The position numbers were made by a program, and so were the translations under genes. The notes under the pieces are model-generated. The model did no database searches, was not told the DNA's origin, and saw only the letters and a list, made by a program, of their open reading frames with translations. Below, piece after piece: positions 18,275 to 28,194 of a stretch of 37,603 nucleotides of DNA. Within the stretch, counting starts at the first letter, position 1. Each line of letters opens with the position of its first letter. The stretch is from Alphaproteobacteria bacterium. GTDB lineage: Bacteria; Pseudomonadota; Alphaproteobacteria; Caulobacterales; Maricaulaceae. The DNA is taken from the NCBI GenBank assembly GCA_021776705.1, contig JAJFFL010000155.1, positions 1 to 37,603 of the forward strand. The letters are read 5' to 3'.

Positions 18275-18437
18275 AAGGTCTTCCCTGTGAATCGGGGCGG
18301 AATATGCACGCCGTTCCCAAGGCCGTCCAGCGCCGGCGGCGAGGCCGAAAAAACAGCGTTCGGGCGGTGGAAAACGGCTCGCAAACCGCGCCCGACGATA
18401 CTATATTTAGCGTCTGATATTGAGTGGGGCACTAGTG

Positions 18438-21400
18438 ATGCGCATCGAACGCCGATTCACCGTCGAAGGGGAAGATCCTTATTCCCGGATCGCTTTTCGC
18501 AGCGCCGTGAGTGAACTGCATGGCCTCGACGGCGCTTCGGTAGGCGTCCCCGTGAACGTCGAAGCGCCGGAGGCGTGGAGCCAGACGGCGGTCGACATCC
18601 TGGCGCAAAAATATCTGCGGCGCGGCGGCGTGCCGGCGGCGCTCAAGTCCGTCGTCGAAAAAGGCGTGCCGGCGTGGCTGCGCCGTCGCCGCGCCGACGA
18701 CAAGGCCCTGGCCGACATCGTCGAGTCCGACCGGTCCACGTCCGAAACCTCGGCCAAGCAGGTGTTCGACCGCATGGCCGGCGCTTGGACTTATTGGGGT
18801 TGGAAAGAAGGCCATTTCCGCGACGAGAGCGACGCGCGCGCTTTTTTCGACGAAATCCGCTACATGCTCGCCGCCCAGATCGCCGCGCCGAACAGCCCGC
18901 AATGGTTCAACACCGGATTGCATTGGGCCTACGGCCTCGACGGCGGCCCTCAGGGCCATTGGTATGTCGATCCCGACACCGGTCGGGCGCGCAAGACCGA
19001 CAACGCTTACGAACGACCGCAACCGCACGCGTGCTTCATTCAGCATGTCGACGACGACCTCCTCGCCGAAGGGGGGATCATGGATCTCTGGACCCGCGAA
19101 GCGCGGCTGTTCAAATTCGGCTCGGGCGCCGGATCCAACTATTCCTCGATCCGCGGACGCGGCGAGCCGCTGTCGGGCGGCGGTGAATCGTCGGGGCTCT
19201 TGAGTTTCCTCAAAGTCGGCGACGCGGCGGCCGGCGCGATCAAGTCCGGCGGAGTCACTCGTCGCGCCGCCAAGATGGTGGTCGTCGACGTCGACCACCC
19301 GGACATCGAGAGCTTCATCGACTGGAAGGCCAAAGAGGAGCGCAAGGTCGCCGCCTTGGTCGCCGGCTCGCATCTTTTGAAAGCGCGGTTGGAGGCGATC
19401 CTCCGCGCGTGCGTCAATTGCGAGGGGGCGGCCGAAGACTGCCTCGACCCAGAGAAAAATGCCGCCCTGAAGCGCGAGATCAAGGCGGCCCGTCGCGCCG
19501 GCGCGCCGGACGGGGTGATCGCCCAGACCCTGGCGCTCGCCGCCCAGGGCGAGACGGACCTCGATTTCGAAACCTACGACATCGATTGGGACTCGGAGGC
19601 CTACGAGACCGTTTCCGGGCAAAACGCCAACAATTCCGTTCGCATCCCGGACGCCTTCCTGCGCGCCGTCGAAGAAGACGCCGATTGGTCCCTGGTGCGC
19701 CGCACCGACGGCCTCACCTCCAAGACCGTGCGGGCGCGGGACCTGTGGCGCAAGATCGCGCGCGCGGCCTGGGCTTCCGCCGACCCGGGCGTGCAATTCC
19801 ATGACACGATCAACGCCTGGAATACGTGCGCCGCGAGCGGCGAAATCCGCGCGTCGAACCCGTGTTCGGAATACATGTTCCTCGACGACACCGCCTGCAA
19901 CCTCGCGTCGTTGAACCTGAAATCGTTTCTGCGCGACCACGGCGAGTTCGACACCGAGGCCTTTGCGCACGCCGTCCGGCTGTGGACCGTGGCGCTCGAC
20001 GTTTCGGTGTCCATGGCGTCGTTTCCTTCGAAGAACATCGCCAAGCGGTCGGCGGAATTTCGCACCCTCGGATTGGGCTACGCCAACCTTGGCGGCCTCC
20101 TTATGTCGACCGGTCTCGCCTACGACAGCCGCGAAGGCCGCGCCGCGGCGGCGGCCATTACAGCACTGCTGTCGGCGACAGCCTACCGCACGTCGGCCGA
20201 GCTCGCCGCGGCGCTTGAGCCGTTTCCGGCGTACGCGACAAACCAGGTCCACGCCCTGCGGGTGTTGCGCAATCACGCCCGCGCCGCCTACGGGATTGGC
20301 GAGGCGCACGAGTTTGAAGACGTCAACGTTCCACCGTTGCCGCTCGACGTCGACGGCTGTCCCTTTCCGGGTCTCGCCGAGGCCGTTGGTGACGCCTGGG
20401 AGGCGACGCTTGAAGCCGCCGAGACCCACGGCTTGCGCAACGCCCAGACCACCGCCATCGCGCCGACCGGCACGATCGGTCTGGTCATGGACTGCGACAC
20501 CACCGGAATCGAACCGGACTTCGCGCTGGTGAAATTCAAGAAACTCGCCGGCGGCGGCTTCTTCAAGATTATCAATCGCTCGGCGCCCGCTGCGCTGCAG
20601 GCGTTGGGCTACACGCCGGCGGAAATCGCGGAAATTGAAATCTATGCGCTTGGCCGCGGCACTCTCGAGGGCGCGCCGTCGGTGGGGTGGGAGACTTTGA
20701 GGGCCAAAGGCTTCACCGACCTCGAAATCCGCACCGTCGAAGACTCGCTCGCCGACGCGTTCGACATCCGCTTCGCCTTCAACCGGTGGACGTTGGGCGA
20801 CGGATTCCTCACCGACGCGCTCGGCATTCCCTCCGAAGACTTGAATCAGCCCGGCTTCGACGTGCTGACCGCGATCGGGTTCAGCGCCCGCGAAGTCGAA
20901 GAAGCCAACACCTACTGCTGCGGCGCAATGACGCTTGAAGGCGCGCCGCACTTGAAACTGGAACACCTGCCGGTGTTCGACTGCGCCGCGCCTTGCGGGC
21001 GGACCGGAACGCGGGCGCTGTCGATCAACGCGCACATCCACATGATGGCCGCGGTGCAGCCCTACGTCTCGGGAGCGATCTCAAAAACCATCAACATGCC
21101 GAACGCCGCCACGATCAACGATTGCTCCACCGCTTACGCCAAGGCCTGGAGCCTCGGCCTCAAGTCGGTCGCGCTTTACCGCGACGGCTCCAAGTTGTCG
21201 CAACCGCTCGCCAGCGCCCTACTCGACGCAGTGGAGCTCGAGGCTTTGGAAGACGTTGTCGAGCAACCGCGCGCGGCGGCCTCGCGCGTTCTCGCGGAGC
21301 GTGTTGTGGAACGCGTTGTCGAGCGTGTCGTCGAACAACCGATGTCGCGCCGCCGTCTGCCCGACCGGCGCAAAGGCTACATTCAAAAGGCGACGGTCGG

Positions 21401-22094
21401 CGGCCACAAGGTCTACCTTCACACCGGCGAATTCGACGACGGCGATCTCGGCGAAATCTTTCTCGACATGCACAAGGAAGGCGCCGCGTTTCGGTCGCTG
21501 ATGAACAATTTCGCGATCGCGATTTCCATCGGCCTGCAGTACGGCGTGCCGCTGGAAGAATTCGTCGACGCCTATGTGTTCACCCGTTTCGACCCGGCGG
21601 GTCCGGTGACCGGCAACGACCGCATCAAACAGGCGACGTCGATCCTCGACTCCCTCTTCCGAGAACTCGCGGTGTCCTATCACGGGCGCGACGATCTCGC
21701 CCACGTCGACCCAAGCCGCGCCGCGTCCGACGGACTCGGCGGCGGCGTCAAGGAAGGCCGATTGGAACAAGCGCCGGAGGAGGCCGCCAGCCTGATCTCG
21801 AAGGGGTTCAGCCGCGGCCGGGCTCCCGAGAACCTGATCCTGTTGGCCGACGCCGCCCGACGGCTCAAGGCCCGCATGCCCGGCGGCGGCGACATCGCCG
21901 CCGCGCCGGACGCCGGCTTTGTCGAAACCAGCCCTCCAGCGGGGCCGGGAGCGCGCGACAGAGCGCACGCGGAAGAGGCGAGAATCAAGGGCTACGCCGG
22001 CGATCCATGCCCCGAATGCGGTTCCTTCACGCTGGTGCGATCCGGCACGTGCATGAAGTGCGACACGTGCGGCACATCAACCGGCTGCAGCTGA
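18438..22094 (+). CDS. nrdJ: Vitamin B12-dependent ribonucleotide reductase
   Basis: [97 protein letters not shown]-terminal [28 protein letters not shown]. Start at 18438 ATG (or 18435 GTG). Confidence 0.96.
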
Positions 22095-22156: not shown

Positions 22157-22657
22157 ATGCGCGCCCGTTTCATCGCCGCTTTGGCCGCGTTCGCGGTCGC
22201 CGGAACCGCGTCAGCCCAGGACGCCGGGCAAATAGCCCGCGTCGAGGCGGGGCTGAAGGCTTGTCCCGGCTGCAATCTCTTTCAAGCGGATTTCTCGTAT
22301 TGGGACATGCCGGGCCGCGACTTTTCCGGGGCGCGGCTTCGCCAAGCGACGTTGACCGCCGGAATCTTCGACGACACGAACTTCGTCGGAGCCGATCTCT
22401 CGATCCTCGACGGAGCCGCCGCGCGGTTTTCCAGCGCCCGGTTTCGCGACGCCGACCTGTCGCGGGCCAATTTCGTCGGGGCCTATCTTGGCTATGCCGA
22501 CTTCGCCGGCGCGGACCTCACGGACGCGGATCTGTCCGGCGCTGAACTGGAAGGCGCGAAAAACCTGACCCAATCGCAGCTGGACGCGGCCTGCGGCGAT
22601 TCTTCCACGCAACTCCCCTCGCCTTTGACGATAAGGGATTGCGGGTCTCCTTTCTAA
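22157..22657 (+). CDS. Secreted pentapeptide-repeat protein (paralog 1 of 4)
   Basis: Signal peptide MRARFIAALAAFAVAGTASAQ; CPGCNLFQADFSYWDMPGRDFSGARLRQATL...FVGADLSILDGAAARFSSARFRDADLSRANFVGAYLGYADFAGADLTDADLSGAELEGA; C-term LTQSQLDAACGDSSTQLPSPLTIRDC. Confidence 0.92.
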   Translation: MRARFIAALAAFAVAGTASAQDAGQIARVEAGLKACPGCNLFQADFSYWDMPGRDFSGARLRQATLTAGIFDDTNFVGADLSILDGAAARFSSARFRDADLSRANFVGAYLGYADFAGADLTDADLSGAELEGAKNLTQSQLDAACGDSSTQLPSPLTIRDCGSPF

Positions 22658-22743
22658 GGACTTACAAGGATTTAAGTACTTTCCTCCGGCGCATCGGGGT
22701 ACCTCTGAGACCGACCTAGACGGAACCGGACAAGGAGGACGCG

Positions 22744-24465
22744 GTGCGCGGAGCGCTTCTCACCGCCGTATTCATGATCGTCTTCGCGAGCCCCGCGTTC
22801 GCGCAAAAGGACGACGTGAAGAAAACCAAGGCGATCGGGGGCGTCTGCTCCGATTGCGATTATTCCGGCAACAATCTTAACGGAGCCACGATCAGCGGAA
22901 ACCTGCCGCGGTCGAATTTCTCCGGAGCCAAGCTGCAAAAAACCCGCATCAGCGGCAACCTCACGAATGCGAATTTCGCCCGCGCCGATCTGACGCGCGC
23001 CGTCATCCAGGGCGGCAACATGTCTCAAAGCGATTTTTCGGGAGCGCGGCTGAACCGCGCGGAAATCATGGGCGCCAACTTCTCGGCGTCGGATTTCTCC
23101 AGCGCCGAACTCCAGGAAGCGGAAGTCGTCGGCGCTAATTTTTCAGACGTGACGTTTCTGGGCGCCAAACTCAGTGCTGGGGAGTTTCAGGGCACGACGT
23201 TCGTGCGCGGCGATTTTTCCCGCACTGTTCTTTCCGGTTCGAGTTTCGCCGGCAGCGTCTTCAAGGGCGCGAAGTTCGAGGGCGCCGACCTGTCCGGCTC
23301 CGAGTTTGAAGGCGCCATCTTTGAGAACGCGGTCTTCGCCGACACCAACGTCGAAGGCGCCGATTTCAGCGGCGCCATGTTCGGCGGCGCCGACCTGACG
23401 GGCGCGCGCGGCTTGACCGTCAGCCAACTTGAATCCGCTTGCGGCGACGACGACACCAAGTTGCCCGCGAACCTGTCGGAAACGCCGCTCAAGAGCTGCG
23501 CCGACTACCATTTCGGCAAGAAGTTCGGCTTCAGTTCCCGATACTTTTTCGGCCCGGACGGGGTCGACGTGTTCCAGAATCACCAAAACGGCTTCGTCAT
23601 GCCGGACGTTGATGTCCGCGTGGTTGAGAACGGGCGCGGCGTCTTCGCCATCACCGGCAAAGATGGATCGTTTTCGTTCGTCGTTCCCGATGGCGACCTG
23701 GCCGCGTTCGAAAACTTCGAGGCCTTCGCCGACGCCGCCGAAGCCCTCACCGAATCGCGGATGGCGTTGAACGAAGCCTTCGCGGCGGCGCACGGCGACA
23801 TCGATCTTGAGATGCGCGACGCCATCGACGCCGCGCGCAACGCCCTCAACGAAGTTCAGATCGACCTCGACATCGATCCCACAGACTCGCTCCAGGAAGC
23901 CCGTCGTGCGCTGGAGAGCGCGACTCTTGCGTCTCAGGGCGAATACGTCACCGAGGCCCTCCAGGAAGCGTTGGATGCGTTGGACGACGCCGAAATGGAG
24001 TGGATCGACGCTCGCGACGAGCTTCGAGAAGAACGGCTCGATCGCCGCATCGAAGTCATCGACGCCCGGCGCGACCTCGAGGAATCCCGCGTCGAGCGCG
24101 AGTTCGAAATGCGCGAGCGCGCTCTGGAACGTGAATACACGTCCAAAGAACGCAGCCTGGCGCGTGCCTTTCGCGATCGAGAGCGTGCGATTGAAGTTGA
24201 ACAATCCCTGATCGAACGTCGCCTCGACCGGGCCGACGACAGTGAAACTCGCGCTCTCGAGAACCGGCTGCGCGAGCTCGAAAACGAACTCGAACGTTTG
24301 GAAGGCGAATACGAACAAGCGGAAGCCAAACTCGAAACCGAGCAGGAAGCCGCCGAAGAGCGCTTTGAAGCCGAATACGAAGAACGCCTCCAGCAACTGC
24401 ACGCTGAAATCGACGCCATGATGCACGACATCGAACGCGAGGCTGAAACCGACGTCGAACACTGA
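22744..24465 (+). CDS. Secreted pentapeptide-repeat protein fused to a C-terminal charged coiled coil (paralog 2 of 4)
   Basis: GTG start; MRGALLTAVFMIVFASPAFAQ; CSDCDYSGNNLNGATISGN... ~30 pentapeptides; LTVSQLESACGDDDTKLPANLSETPLKSC; then ~200 aa Glu/Arg-rich helix. Confidence 0.92.
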   Translation: MRGALLTAVFMIVFASPAFAQKDDVKKTKAIGGVCSDCDYSGNNLNGATISGNLPRSNFSGAKLQKTRISGNLTNANFARADLTRAVIQGGNMSQSDFSGARLNRAEIMGANFSASDFSSAELQEAEVVGANFSDVTFLGAKLSAGEFQGTTFVRGDFSRTVLSGSSFAGSVFKGAKFEGADLSGSEFEGAIFENAVFADTNVEGADFSGAMFGGADLTGARGLTVSQLESACGDDDTKLPANLSETPLKSCADYHFGKKFGFSSRYFFGPDGVDVFQNHQNGFVMPDVDVRVVENGRGVFAITGKDGSFSFVVPDGDLAAFENFEAFADAAEALTESRMALNEAFAAAHGDIDLEMRDAIDAARNALNEVQIDLDIDPTDSLQEARRALESATLASQGEYVTEALQEALDALDDAEMEWIDARDELREERLDRRIEVIDARRDLEESRVEREFEMRERALEREYTSKERSLARAFRDRERAIEVEQSLIERRLDRADDSETRALENRLRELENELERLEGEYEQAEAKLETEQEAAEERFEAEYEERLQQLHAEIDAMMHDIEREAETDVEH

Positions 24466-24500
24466 CGTCGACCGTTCTCGCTCAACGGGGAGAAACTTTC

Positions 24501-25280
24501 ATGCGCCTGCTGCTTGCCGCCTTGGTCGCCGGAGCCGCCGTTTCGAGCGCGGCCGTCGCCGACGATGAACGCGAATGTTCCGGCTGCGACTACGCCGGCC
24601 GCAATCTCGCCGACAAAAATTTCACCCGCGTCGATTTCGAGTATTCAACGTTCGCCAACGCCACCCTCACCGGGTCGCGTTTTGCGCACTCCTCGTTCGA
24701 AGGCGCGACGTTCGACGACGCCGACATGCGCGGCGCCAATCTGGCGCATACGGATTTTGAAGGATCCAGCTTTGCGCGCGTCGATTTCACCGACGCCACT
24801 CTGTCGCACAGCGACTTCGACGCCTCCGACGCGCCGGGCGCGATTTTCACGAACGCCGATATCTCACACGTCGACTTTGACGCCTCGGATTTGACCGCCG
24901 CCCAGTTCGGCGGCGCCCAAATTCGCCACGCCGACTTCGACGCTGGACGGCTTGGCGACGCGGTGTTCGACGACGGGCGGCTGATTCATGTCGACTTCGA
25001 CGAATCAATCCTCGATGGCGCGTCCTTCCGGAACGCCTATCTTGAGCACGTCGATTTCGACGGAGCCACGGCCCGCTCTCTCGACTTCACCGGCGCGGAA
25101 TTCCGGATCGTCGACTTCTCCAATGTCGACTTGTCGGACGCGGCCGGCCTGACTGCCGCGCAACTCACGATGGCCTGCGGCACCAATCTCACGCGCGTGC
25201 CTGACGGACTCACGATCCAAAACTGCAAGGACGCGCCTTGGAACGAAGGCCGCTTTTGGAACTCATCCTGGCGCAATTGA
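24501..25280 (+). CDS. Secreted pentapeptide-repeat protein with HxDFD histidine ladder (paralog 3 of 4)
   Basis: Signal peptide; CSGCDYAGRNLADKNFTRVDF...; seven turns (F/L/I)xH(S/T/V/A)(S/D)F(E/D) every 20 aa; LTAAQLTMACGTNLTRVPDGLTIQNC. Confidence 0.93.
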   Translation: MRLLLAALVAGAAVSSAAVADDERECSGCDYAGRNLADKNFTRVDFEYSTFANATLTGSRFAHSSFEGATFDDADMRGANLAHTDFEGSSFARVDFTDATLSHSDFDASDAPGAIFTNADISHVDFDASDLTAAQFGGAQIRHADFDAGRLGDAVFDDGRLIHVDFDESILDGASFRNAYLEHVDFDGATARSLDFTGAEFRIVDFSNVDLSDAAGLTAAQLTMACGTNLTRVPDGLTIQNCKDAPWNEGRFWNSSWRN

Positions 25281-25315
25281 CCTCCGCCAGAACTCAAAAA
25301 ACCCGGGAGACCAAA

Positions 25316-26122
25316 ATGACGACGTTGATCACCGCCGCCGGAGTCGGCGCGCTTGCTCTCGCCGCCTCCGCACTCGCGCACCCAGACGATGACGGCGCGC
25401 GGCGCGACAAGAACATGTGCATTTCGTGCGATTATTCGAACGACGATCTCAGCGGTCGCGACTTCAGCCAAAGGAGCTTCGTCAGCGTCAATTTTGACGG
25501 CGCCAACCTGACAGACGCCACCATCTCGCACTCCTCCCTCGCCAACGCGACGTTTCGCAACGCCACGATGCGTCGCGCGACCATCGCCCACGTCAACGTC
25601 GGCGGCGCCGACTTCTCTCGTTCCGACATGCGCGAATCTCGGCTTCAACACGCCAACTTCGGCGACGCCGGTCTCGGCGAAATCGATTTGACGGCGGCCG
25701 ACGTTCAACACGTCAACTTCGGGTCCGTGGACGGCGACAATCTGATCGCCGACACCGCCACGTTCGACCATGTCAATTTCGGGCACGCGGTCTTGATCAA
25801 GGCGAGATTTGAAGGCGCGAGCTTCGCACATGTGAATTTCGGTCGAGCGCGACTCGCCGACGCGTCTTTCATCGACACGGAAATCTCTGAGTCGAACTTT
25901 CACGACGTCGCGTTCGACAGCTCCGACTTTCGCGGCGCACGCCTTCATGAAGTCGCCTTCGAAGGCGCGGACCTTTCGAGCGCTCGCGGCCTCAATCAGG
26001 GCATGCTCGCCGTCGCCTGCGGGGACAGCGACACGCGGCTGCCGAACGGTCTGACGATCGCCGACTGCGATGACGTGCCCTGGATGGAGAATCGCCGTTC
26101 GCATCGAAACTACGACGATTGA
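25316..26122 (+). CDS. Secreted pentapeptide-repeat protein with HxNFG histidine ladder (paralog 4 of 4)
   Basis: ATG 25316 after GGGAGA; signal peptide MTTLITAAGVGALALAASALA; CISCDYSNDDLSGRDFS...; six His every 20 aa; LNQGMLAVACGDSDTRLPNGLTIADC. Confidence 0.93.
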   Translation: MTTLITAAGVGALALAASALAHPDDDGARRDKNMCISCDYSNDDLSGRDFSQRSFVSVNFDGANLTDATISHSSLANATFRNATMRRATIAHVNVGGADFSRSDMRESRLQHANFGDAGLGEIDLTAADVQHVNFGSVDGDNLIADTATFDHVNFGHAVLIKARFEGASFAHVNFGRARLADASFIDTEISESNFHDVAFDSSDFRGARLHEVAFEGADLSSARGLNQGMLAVACGDSDTRLPNGLTIADCDDVPWMENRRSHRNYDD

Positions 26123-26274: not shown

Positions 26275-28086
26275 CTAGCTCTTGGCGGTCTCTTTGGGCG
26301 GTTCAACGACGCGGATATGCAATTCCTTCAATTGCTGTGAGGACACGTCCGACGGCGCGTTCATCATCAGATCCTGCGCTTGCTGGTTCATCGGAAACAT
26401 CGTCACTTCACGGATGTTCTCGACGCCCGCAAGCAACATGACGATACGGTCCACCCCCGGCGCGATTCCGCCATGCGGCGGAGCCCCGTAGCGGAAAGCG
26501 TTGAGCATGCCGCCGAACTTGTCTTCGACGATGTCCGGACCATAGCCGGCGATGTCGAACGCCTTGAGCATGATCTCCGGGCGATGGTTCCGGATCGCCC
26601 CAGAGGAAAGCTCCACGCCGTTGCAGACGATGTCGTATTGGTAGGCGAGGATGTCGAGAGGATCCTTTGACTCGAGCGCCTCCATGCCGCCTTGCGGCAT
26701 TGAGAACGGGTTGTGCGAGAAATCGACTTTCTTGTCGTCCTCATTCCACTCGAACATCGGAAAATCGACGATCCAACAAAATTTGAAAACGCCGGGTTCG
26801 ACCAAATTCAACTCCTGGCCGATCTTCGCCCGCGCCGCGCCGGCGAGTTTCACCGCATCGCCGGAGGCTCCCGCCGCGAAGAACAGGGCGTCGCCCGCCT
26901 TGACGCCGGCGTGGTCGGCCATCTCGCGTTGGACGTCTGCTGGAATGAACTTGGCGATCGGCCCCTTTCCGGTCAGACCTTCCGGACCGTCCTCGAAGAC
27001 GACATAGCCAAGGCCCGGCGCCTGCATCTCCTTGCGCGCCCAATCGTTGAGCTTGTCGAAGAACGAACGCGGAAGCGCCCCCGCGCCCGGGGCGGGCACG
27101 CCGCGCACGGTGCCGCCGCCGGAGATGACGTTCTTGAACGCGTTGAAGGTCACGCCGTCGCGCTCGAAGAACGACGTGACATCGCAGTTTTCGATCGGTA
27201 TCCGCAAGTCCGGCTTGTCAGTTCCGAACTTCAGCATCGCGTCGGCGAACGGAATGCGGGGGAACGGCGCCGGACTGACCGCGCGGCCGTCGGCGAAGTC
27301 CTCGAACAATCCGTGCATCACCGGTTCGATCGCCTCAAACACGTCGTCCTGGGTGGCGAAGCTCATTTCCACGTCAAGTTGATAGAATTCGCCCGGACTG
27401 CGATCGGCGCGCGCGTCTTCGTCGCGAAAGCACGGGGCGATCTGGAAGTAGCGATCGAAGCCGGCGACCATGATCAGTTGCTTGAATTGCTGCGGCGCCT
27501 GCGGCAGGGCGTAAAACCGCCCCGGGTGCAAGCGAGACGGCACAAGAAAATCGCGCGCCCCTTCCGGACTCGACGCCGTCAGGATCGGGGTCTGGAATTC
27601 CGTGAATCCCTGATCGGTCATGCGTCGTCGGATTGAGGAGATGATCGCGGACCGCAGAGCGATGTTTCGGTGCAGCGTCTCCCGACGCAAATCCAAAAAC
27701 CGATAGGTGAGCCGCGTCTCTTCCGGGTACTCCGGCTCGCCGAACACCGGCAACGGCAATTCGGCGGCCTCCGAATGGACCTCCAATTCCGTCGCCTTGA
27801 GTTCGATGCCGCCGGTCGGCAAGCTGGCGTTCACGGTGTCGGCGCTGCGCGCGACGACTTCGCCCGTCACCGACACGACGCTCTCCACCCGCATGCGCTC
27901 AAGTCGTTCAAAATGCGGATTGCCAGGCAAAAGCACGCACTGCGTGACGCCGAAATGGTCGCGCAGATCGACGAACAAGAGCCCGCCGTGGTCGCGCTTT
28001 CTGTGGACCCAGCCGGCAAGCCGGACGGTTTGGCCGACGTCTTCGGCGCGCAGCGCGCCGCACGTGTGGGTGCGATAAGCGTGCAT
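26275..28086 (-). CDS. aspS: Aspartyl-tRNA synthetase
   Basis: [46 protein letters not shown]...[24 protein letters not shown]...[44 protein letters not shown] 28086. Confidence 0.97.
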
Positions 28087-28194
28087 GTCCCTGCCTTCAA
28101 ATGGGGAGGTTCCGGGAAGTCGGCGGGACAACGCCTTGGAATCACCTGTGAGTCAAGAATCCGCCTGCGCGACAACGCCGCCGACCGCCGCTAT

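Follow-up and report, generated by a model that had tools for sequence, protein, structure and literature searches.

Pentapeptide-repeat proteins (PRPs) of the bacterial envelope are represented by YjbI/PerA (CCNA_01968) of Caulobacter crescentus, which restrains the envelope-stress systems UzcSR and ChvGI (PMC12864828). YjbI-HA is lost when cells meet Zn, Cu, sucrose or pH 5.5, but not Mg; the same study cites three Ca ions lying along one face of the orthologue 2G0Y and suggests ion exchange on the helix, without a defined site (PMC12864828). Here we describe a locus related to that of YjbI in which two additional exported PRPs each carry a single straight row of stacked histidines.

The window, the whole 37,603-nt stretch of DNA that was analysed (contig JAJFFL010000155.1 of assembly GCA_021776705.1, Maricaulaceae, Caulobacterales), holds four PRP genes in a row on the forward strand. 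These are p1 (22157..22657, 166 aa), a short exported YjbI/PerA-like protein that has no His; p2 (22744..24465, 573 aa), an exported PRP that has no His ladder and whose C terminus is a long charged tail; p3 (24501..25280, 259 aa; PF00805 E value 2.4e-43) and p4 (25316..26122, 268 aa). They are flanked upstream by nrdJ (adenosylcobalamin-dependent ribonucleotide reductase, 18420..22094, forward strand) and downstream by the convergent aspS (26275..28131, reverse strand), both named by eye from their translations. By published locus tags the arrangement matches the Caulobacter YjbI/PerA locus, in which NrdJ is CCNA_01966 (PMC6538847) and YjbI/PerA is CCNA_01968 (PMC12864828). Relatives from the family and the order of this genome show the same succession nrdJ-p1-p2-aspS, with p1 conserved beside nrdJ and p2 as the second gene, and only these two PRP genes are present there. 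Judged from this gene content, p3 and p4 are a tandem expansion within a conserved locus. The gaps p2-p3 and p3-p4 are both 35 nt, and this spacing on one strand suggests that p2, p3 and p4 may be read as one transcript; a consensus promoter was looked for around the p1-p4 cluster and none was found.

All four proteins show an export signal by inspection, with a hydrophobic start and A-x-A ahead of a polar mature end. In p3 the signal peptide MRLLLAALVAGAAVSSAAVA (24501..24560, forward strand) would be cleaved after AVA and in p4 (25316..25378, forward strand) after ALA, both cleavage sites being placed by eye. The mature p4 would then begin His-Pro-Asp-Asp-Asp (HPDDDG, window 25379-25396), and an N-terminal His is a possible copper ligand. 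Each of p1 to p4 starts with CxxC and ends with a terminal Cys pair, which in p3 and p4 takes the form C-x15-C. The p3 pairs are C26-x-x-C29 (24576..24587) and C226 with C242 (25176..25226), so that C29 and C226 stand 197 residues apart. This distance between second and third Cys is shared by p3, p4 and 26 p2-type relatives and is 107 residues in p1-type proteins, which identifies p3 and p4 as ten-coil helices of the p2 type lacking the p2 tail. As a ruler across the PRP cluster (22157-26122) the Cys spacing keeps helix length strict although identity is about 34%; at 195 residues, p2 of the window is slightly off it. Past its β-helix p2 (22744-24465) continues for about 300 residues in a Glu/Arg-rich, heptad-like extension, and the length of this tail varies widely among p2-type relatives.

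The likeness of p3 and p4 to YjbI/PerA extends to an export signal, a predicted envelope-facing location, a locus close to nrdJ (PMC12864828; PMC7690452) and a quadrilateral β-helix with paired Cys at both ends. There are also differences. YjbI is a single short protein (183 residues) for which no His ladder is described, whereas p3 and p4 are ten-coil extra copies beside p1 and p2. The charged lysine tail of YjbI enters the outer membrane; the short charged tails of p3 and p4 differ from it, share the motif C-x-D-x-P-W-x-E-x-R and are modelled by AlphaFold with low confidence.

The preliminary description had assigned p3 to the right-handed quadrilateral pentapeptide fold, and modelling upholds this. 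PF00805 scores p3 at 145.7 bits and p4 at 84.0 bits against a curated cut-off of 20.2, and AlphaFold gives both as quadrilateral helices (mature p3, pLDDT 92.5 and pTM 0.87; p4, pLDDT 89.7 and pTM 0.84). The best full-length solved match of the p3 model is HetL (3DU1; TM 0.74). HetL, MfpA and Qnr, which have this fold in common with p3 and p4, act in the cytoplasm as regulators or in gyrase protection and are not known to carry an export signal. In contrast, p3 and p4 are exported, and both fall far under the curated NCBIfam cut-offs of those families, of which p3 reaches 69.5 of 260 bits for HetL, 57.2 of 360 for MfpA and 47.1 of 240 for Qnr; membership of any of the three was rejected for p3 and likewise for p4. 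The p3 model also matches the lumenal Rfr-domain PRPs 2F3L and 2G0Y of Cyanothece/Crocosphaera, whose fold likewise lies outside the cytoplasm and of which 2G0Y is the one cited with three Ca ions on one face (PMC12864828). This alignment is partial (105-120 columns, TMq 0.25-0.34), and the accessible part of the published record for 2F3L and 2G0Y reports no His row.

The p3 ladder (24681..25064, forward strand) is real. Its His codons lie at 24687, 24747, 24807, 24867, 24927, 24987 and 25047, exactly 60 nt apart, in the contexts FAHSSF, LAHTDF, LSHSDF, ISHVDF, IRHADF, LIHVDF and LEHVDF, followed by FRIVDF in the next turn; codons and motifs are thus as first described. These seven residues (H63, 83, 103, 123, 143, 163 and 183) are the only His in the protein, and each lies at the same position of its 20-residue turn, over seven turns in succession. 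With four pentapeptides per turn and no insertions or deletions through the ladder, residues 20 apart stack, and the proposed stacking of the rungs is borne out. Across the whole p3 repeat region, a single column out of 20 would take up all seven His by chance with a probability of about 5e-10; when His is restricted to i+2 sites, the chance of all seven falling on one face is about 1.4e-5. Within the window p3 and p4 alone match a DNA pattern of four rungs, which 100 shuffles failed to reproduce. The His occupy i+2 of one face (column R-HHHHHHH-I). The Asp stripes said to flank them are present: the i-1 column reads D-S-DDDDDDD, which through the ladder is S then six D, and i+1 of the next pentapeptide is an E/D stripe (EEE-DDDDD-S).

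The adjacent gene p4 carries a second ladder, absent from the preliminary description, of six rungs in the same register (25523..25840, forward strand; His codons at 25529, 25589, 25649, 25709, 25769 and 25829). The first rung follows the first Cys by 37 residues in p3 and p4 alike. The p4 columns are Q-HHHHHH-EE at i+2, SS-NNNNNN-A at i-1 and V-A-GGGGG-H-E at the next i+1. The His row is therefore common to both proteins, while the flanking stripes, uniform within each, differ in chemistry between them. Since p4 has Asn and Gly where p3 has Asp, flanking Asp stripes are not essential to the ladder.

The two proteins are sisters in the tree (support 96/92) on long branches (0.93 and 1.2) that add up to about 2.1 changes per column, and they are only about 35% identical overall. 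They are nonetheless identical at 6/7 ladder sites, compared with 16/95 other outward sites (Fisher p 3e-4). From this alignment the His row is under constraint in the p3/p4 lineage. In the same tree p3 and p4 fall among p2-type proteins from certain genera of the family, whereas the window's p2 joins its counterparts from other genera (99/98); this split placement makes an older duplication with loss, or transfer, possible, either of which may have shaped the locus (22744-26122).

The history of the row can be read against the 26 p2-type relatives, all of equal (ten-coil) length. Gly occupies 40-48% of their i+2 positions, in keeping with the earlier remark that this site is usually Gly. At the seven p3 ladder sites they have mostly Gly, and His appears at successive rungs in 0,0,0,0,2,2,8 of 26. 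Conservation of the His among relatives, which the preliminary description had looked for, thus held only in part, as it fails in the ten-coil relatives and is seen in p4, the sole true sister. Scans of the family and the order found no orthologue of p3 or p4 beyond this genome, nor did a class scan among the matches listed. By these comparisons the ladder is derived and not ancestral, and perhaps was seeded at its last rungs. The distribution in relatives also argues that it was built by separate replacements and not by DNA duplication. That the row arose simply because a 60-nt unit which chanced to hold a His codon was recently duplicated is, in our view, very improbable. Lag-60 nucleotide identity is indeed higher in p3 (54%) than in the other three genes (42-48%). 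However, a DNA tandem repeat search found none, CAC and CAT are both used among varied flanking codons, and outside the His-face block lag-20 identity amounts to 28% for p3 and 16% for p4, whereas relatives average 33%. As self-identity does not exceed that of relatives, tandem duplication was rejected as the origin of the ladder.

Like residues do stack 20 apart in these proteins, His more than most, and a ladder could therefore form without any ligand. At i+2 in the 26 relatives, like pairs are enriched 8.7x for His, 7.3x for Gln, 3.6x for Glu, 3.3x for Asp and 2.1x for Asn, and the His value falls to 5.6-fold once ladder-bearing relatives are removed. The ladder is accordingly an extreme of a known stacking tendency and not a new principle. 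This bears on the main rival to a functional row, namely that the His form a structural stack only, an extreme of the ordinary like-on-like packing of parallel β-helices which is kept for stability and serves neither metal nor signal. We regard this as a substantial possibility, although one that we would not favour. Besides the enrichment, in which His and Gln rank highest, the same proteins often carry long runs of Gly, Asn, Asp, Ser and Arg, and His ladders of 3-4 rungs occur on different faces in three other genomes (G129, G149 and G154). A search for four rungs in 137 genomes of the family found, besides this genome, pentapeptide helices only in G149 and G154, with the ladder on another face; a three-rung search of 398 genomes of the order added G129, with the ladder on a third face; and in 385 genomes of the class there was no further pentapeptide ladder among the matches listed, several of which were repeat arrays of 60-nt period with a CRISPR-like appearance. 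Against packing alone stand three points: (i) the usual Gly has been replaced at up to seven consecutive rungs; (ii) no relative examined exceeds four His rungs; and (iii) His has been kept while the neighbouring stripes changed from Asp and Asp/Glu in p3 to Asn and Gly in p4. In related genera, p2-type proteins bear His ladders on other faces at L291 1020-2324 (four rungs), L292 1050-2324 (four) and L320 696-2603 (three); these apparently have independent origins.

Caulobacter loses YjbI when exposed to Zn, Cu or low pH, and on this ground we infer that the binding of metal (Zn/Cu) or the sensing of acid has the most support as a function; a surface strip that responds to metal or acid is likely. 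More specifically, p3 and p4 would be a lineage-specific exported pair of the YjbI/PerA type, whose ten-coil β-helix bears a selected, surface-exposed row of stacked His. Within the cell envelope this row would offer a multivalent surface of imidazoles, able to bind Zn2+ or Cu2+ and taking up protons when the pH is mildly acidic. It might thereby tune how stable p3 and p4 are, or what they contact, during the envelope-stress response to zinc, copper and acid, which in Caulobacter is under the control of the related YjbI. We hold this full proposal tentatively, at somewhat short of even confidence. The family's known Zn response need not depend on a His ladder, since p1, nearest to YjbI in length, has no His.

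Designed systems indicate what such a row could do. Stacked His bind Zn in designed parallel β-sheets (PMC8431744), and cryo-EM of a His-stacked amyloid places the N-N distance between adjacent layers at 4.7-5.7 Å, too long to share one Zn, so that a second surface was invoked (PMC10008563). Designed catalytic amyloids of the IHIHIQI type, which bind Zn, resemble p3 and p4 in having rows of His one β-layer apart (PMC8431744, PMC10008563); they are synthetic self-assembled peptides and not a folded secreted protein, and the analogy is physical only. Given these distances, a linear array such as the one first proposed for p3 would require that rotamers alternate, that Asp serve as co-ligand or that a partner surface take part. 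In the imidazole-surface proposal, metal would sit between neighbouring rungs in alternating rotamers, aided in p3 by the flanking Asp stripes, or else between the ladders of two molecules.

A bolder version takes up this last arrangement. The p3 and p4 rows would face each other at the cell surface with several Zn or Cu ions between them, and envelope stress signalling would be set by a p3-p4 (or p3-p3) complex made or broken by metal. We consider this unlikely; if true, it would be a natural β-helix counterpart of the designed His amyloids. Similarly doubtful is a pure pH switch, in which the row is neutral above pH 7 and becomes a positive line below about 6, so that contact with anionic LPS or with the neighbouring acidic protein changes or the protein becomes accessible to a protease. 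Such a switch would accord with the loss of C. crescentus YjbI at pH 5.5 (PMC12864828), with the Asp stripes beside the p3 His and with the acidic cores of both proteins (net charge -24 in p3, -17 in p4). However, the YjbI-type p1 has no His, so that acid-induced loss may not need it.

With titratable, metal-liking side chains set in a fixed row, these two paralogues make it possible to test directly by what means exported YjbI-type proteins sense Zn, Cu or acid. As a natural His ruler with one-coil spacing, the row may also be of use for metalloprotein design and for studying the evolution of same-residue stripes in repeat proteins.

A literature search found no paper on a His ladder in a PRP. 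When the four-rung pattern was scanned across genome and viral contigs, only L090, L141 and L268 were pentapeptide-helix-like among the matches listed. Four stacked His are found at L090 1915-4425 (reverse strand) in a Castellaniella genome, at L141 3073-4509 (reverse strand) in another genome and at L268 12278-12760 (forward strand) on a viral contig, where His lie on several faces. The ladder scan also met Met/His-rich MDHSxM/GHGAM repeats (L161, L070, L100, L147 and L162), which are not pentapeptide helices and resemble copper-binding Met/His repeats. Low-complexity repeats of other kinds were also among its matches. At L344 (G697:C1:1911870 and 1921282) and L348 (G696:C59) there are CRISPR-like arrays TGCCGCAYAGGCAGCTCAGA with a 60-nt period, which match any 60-nt periodic search.
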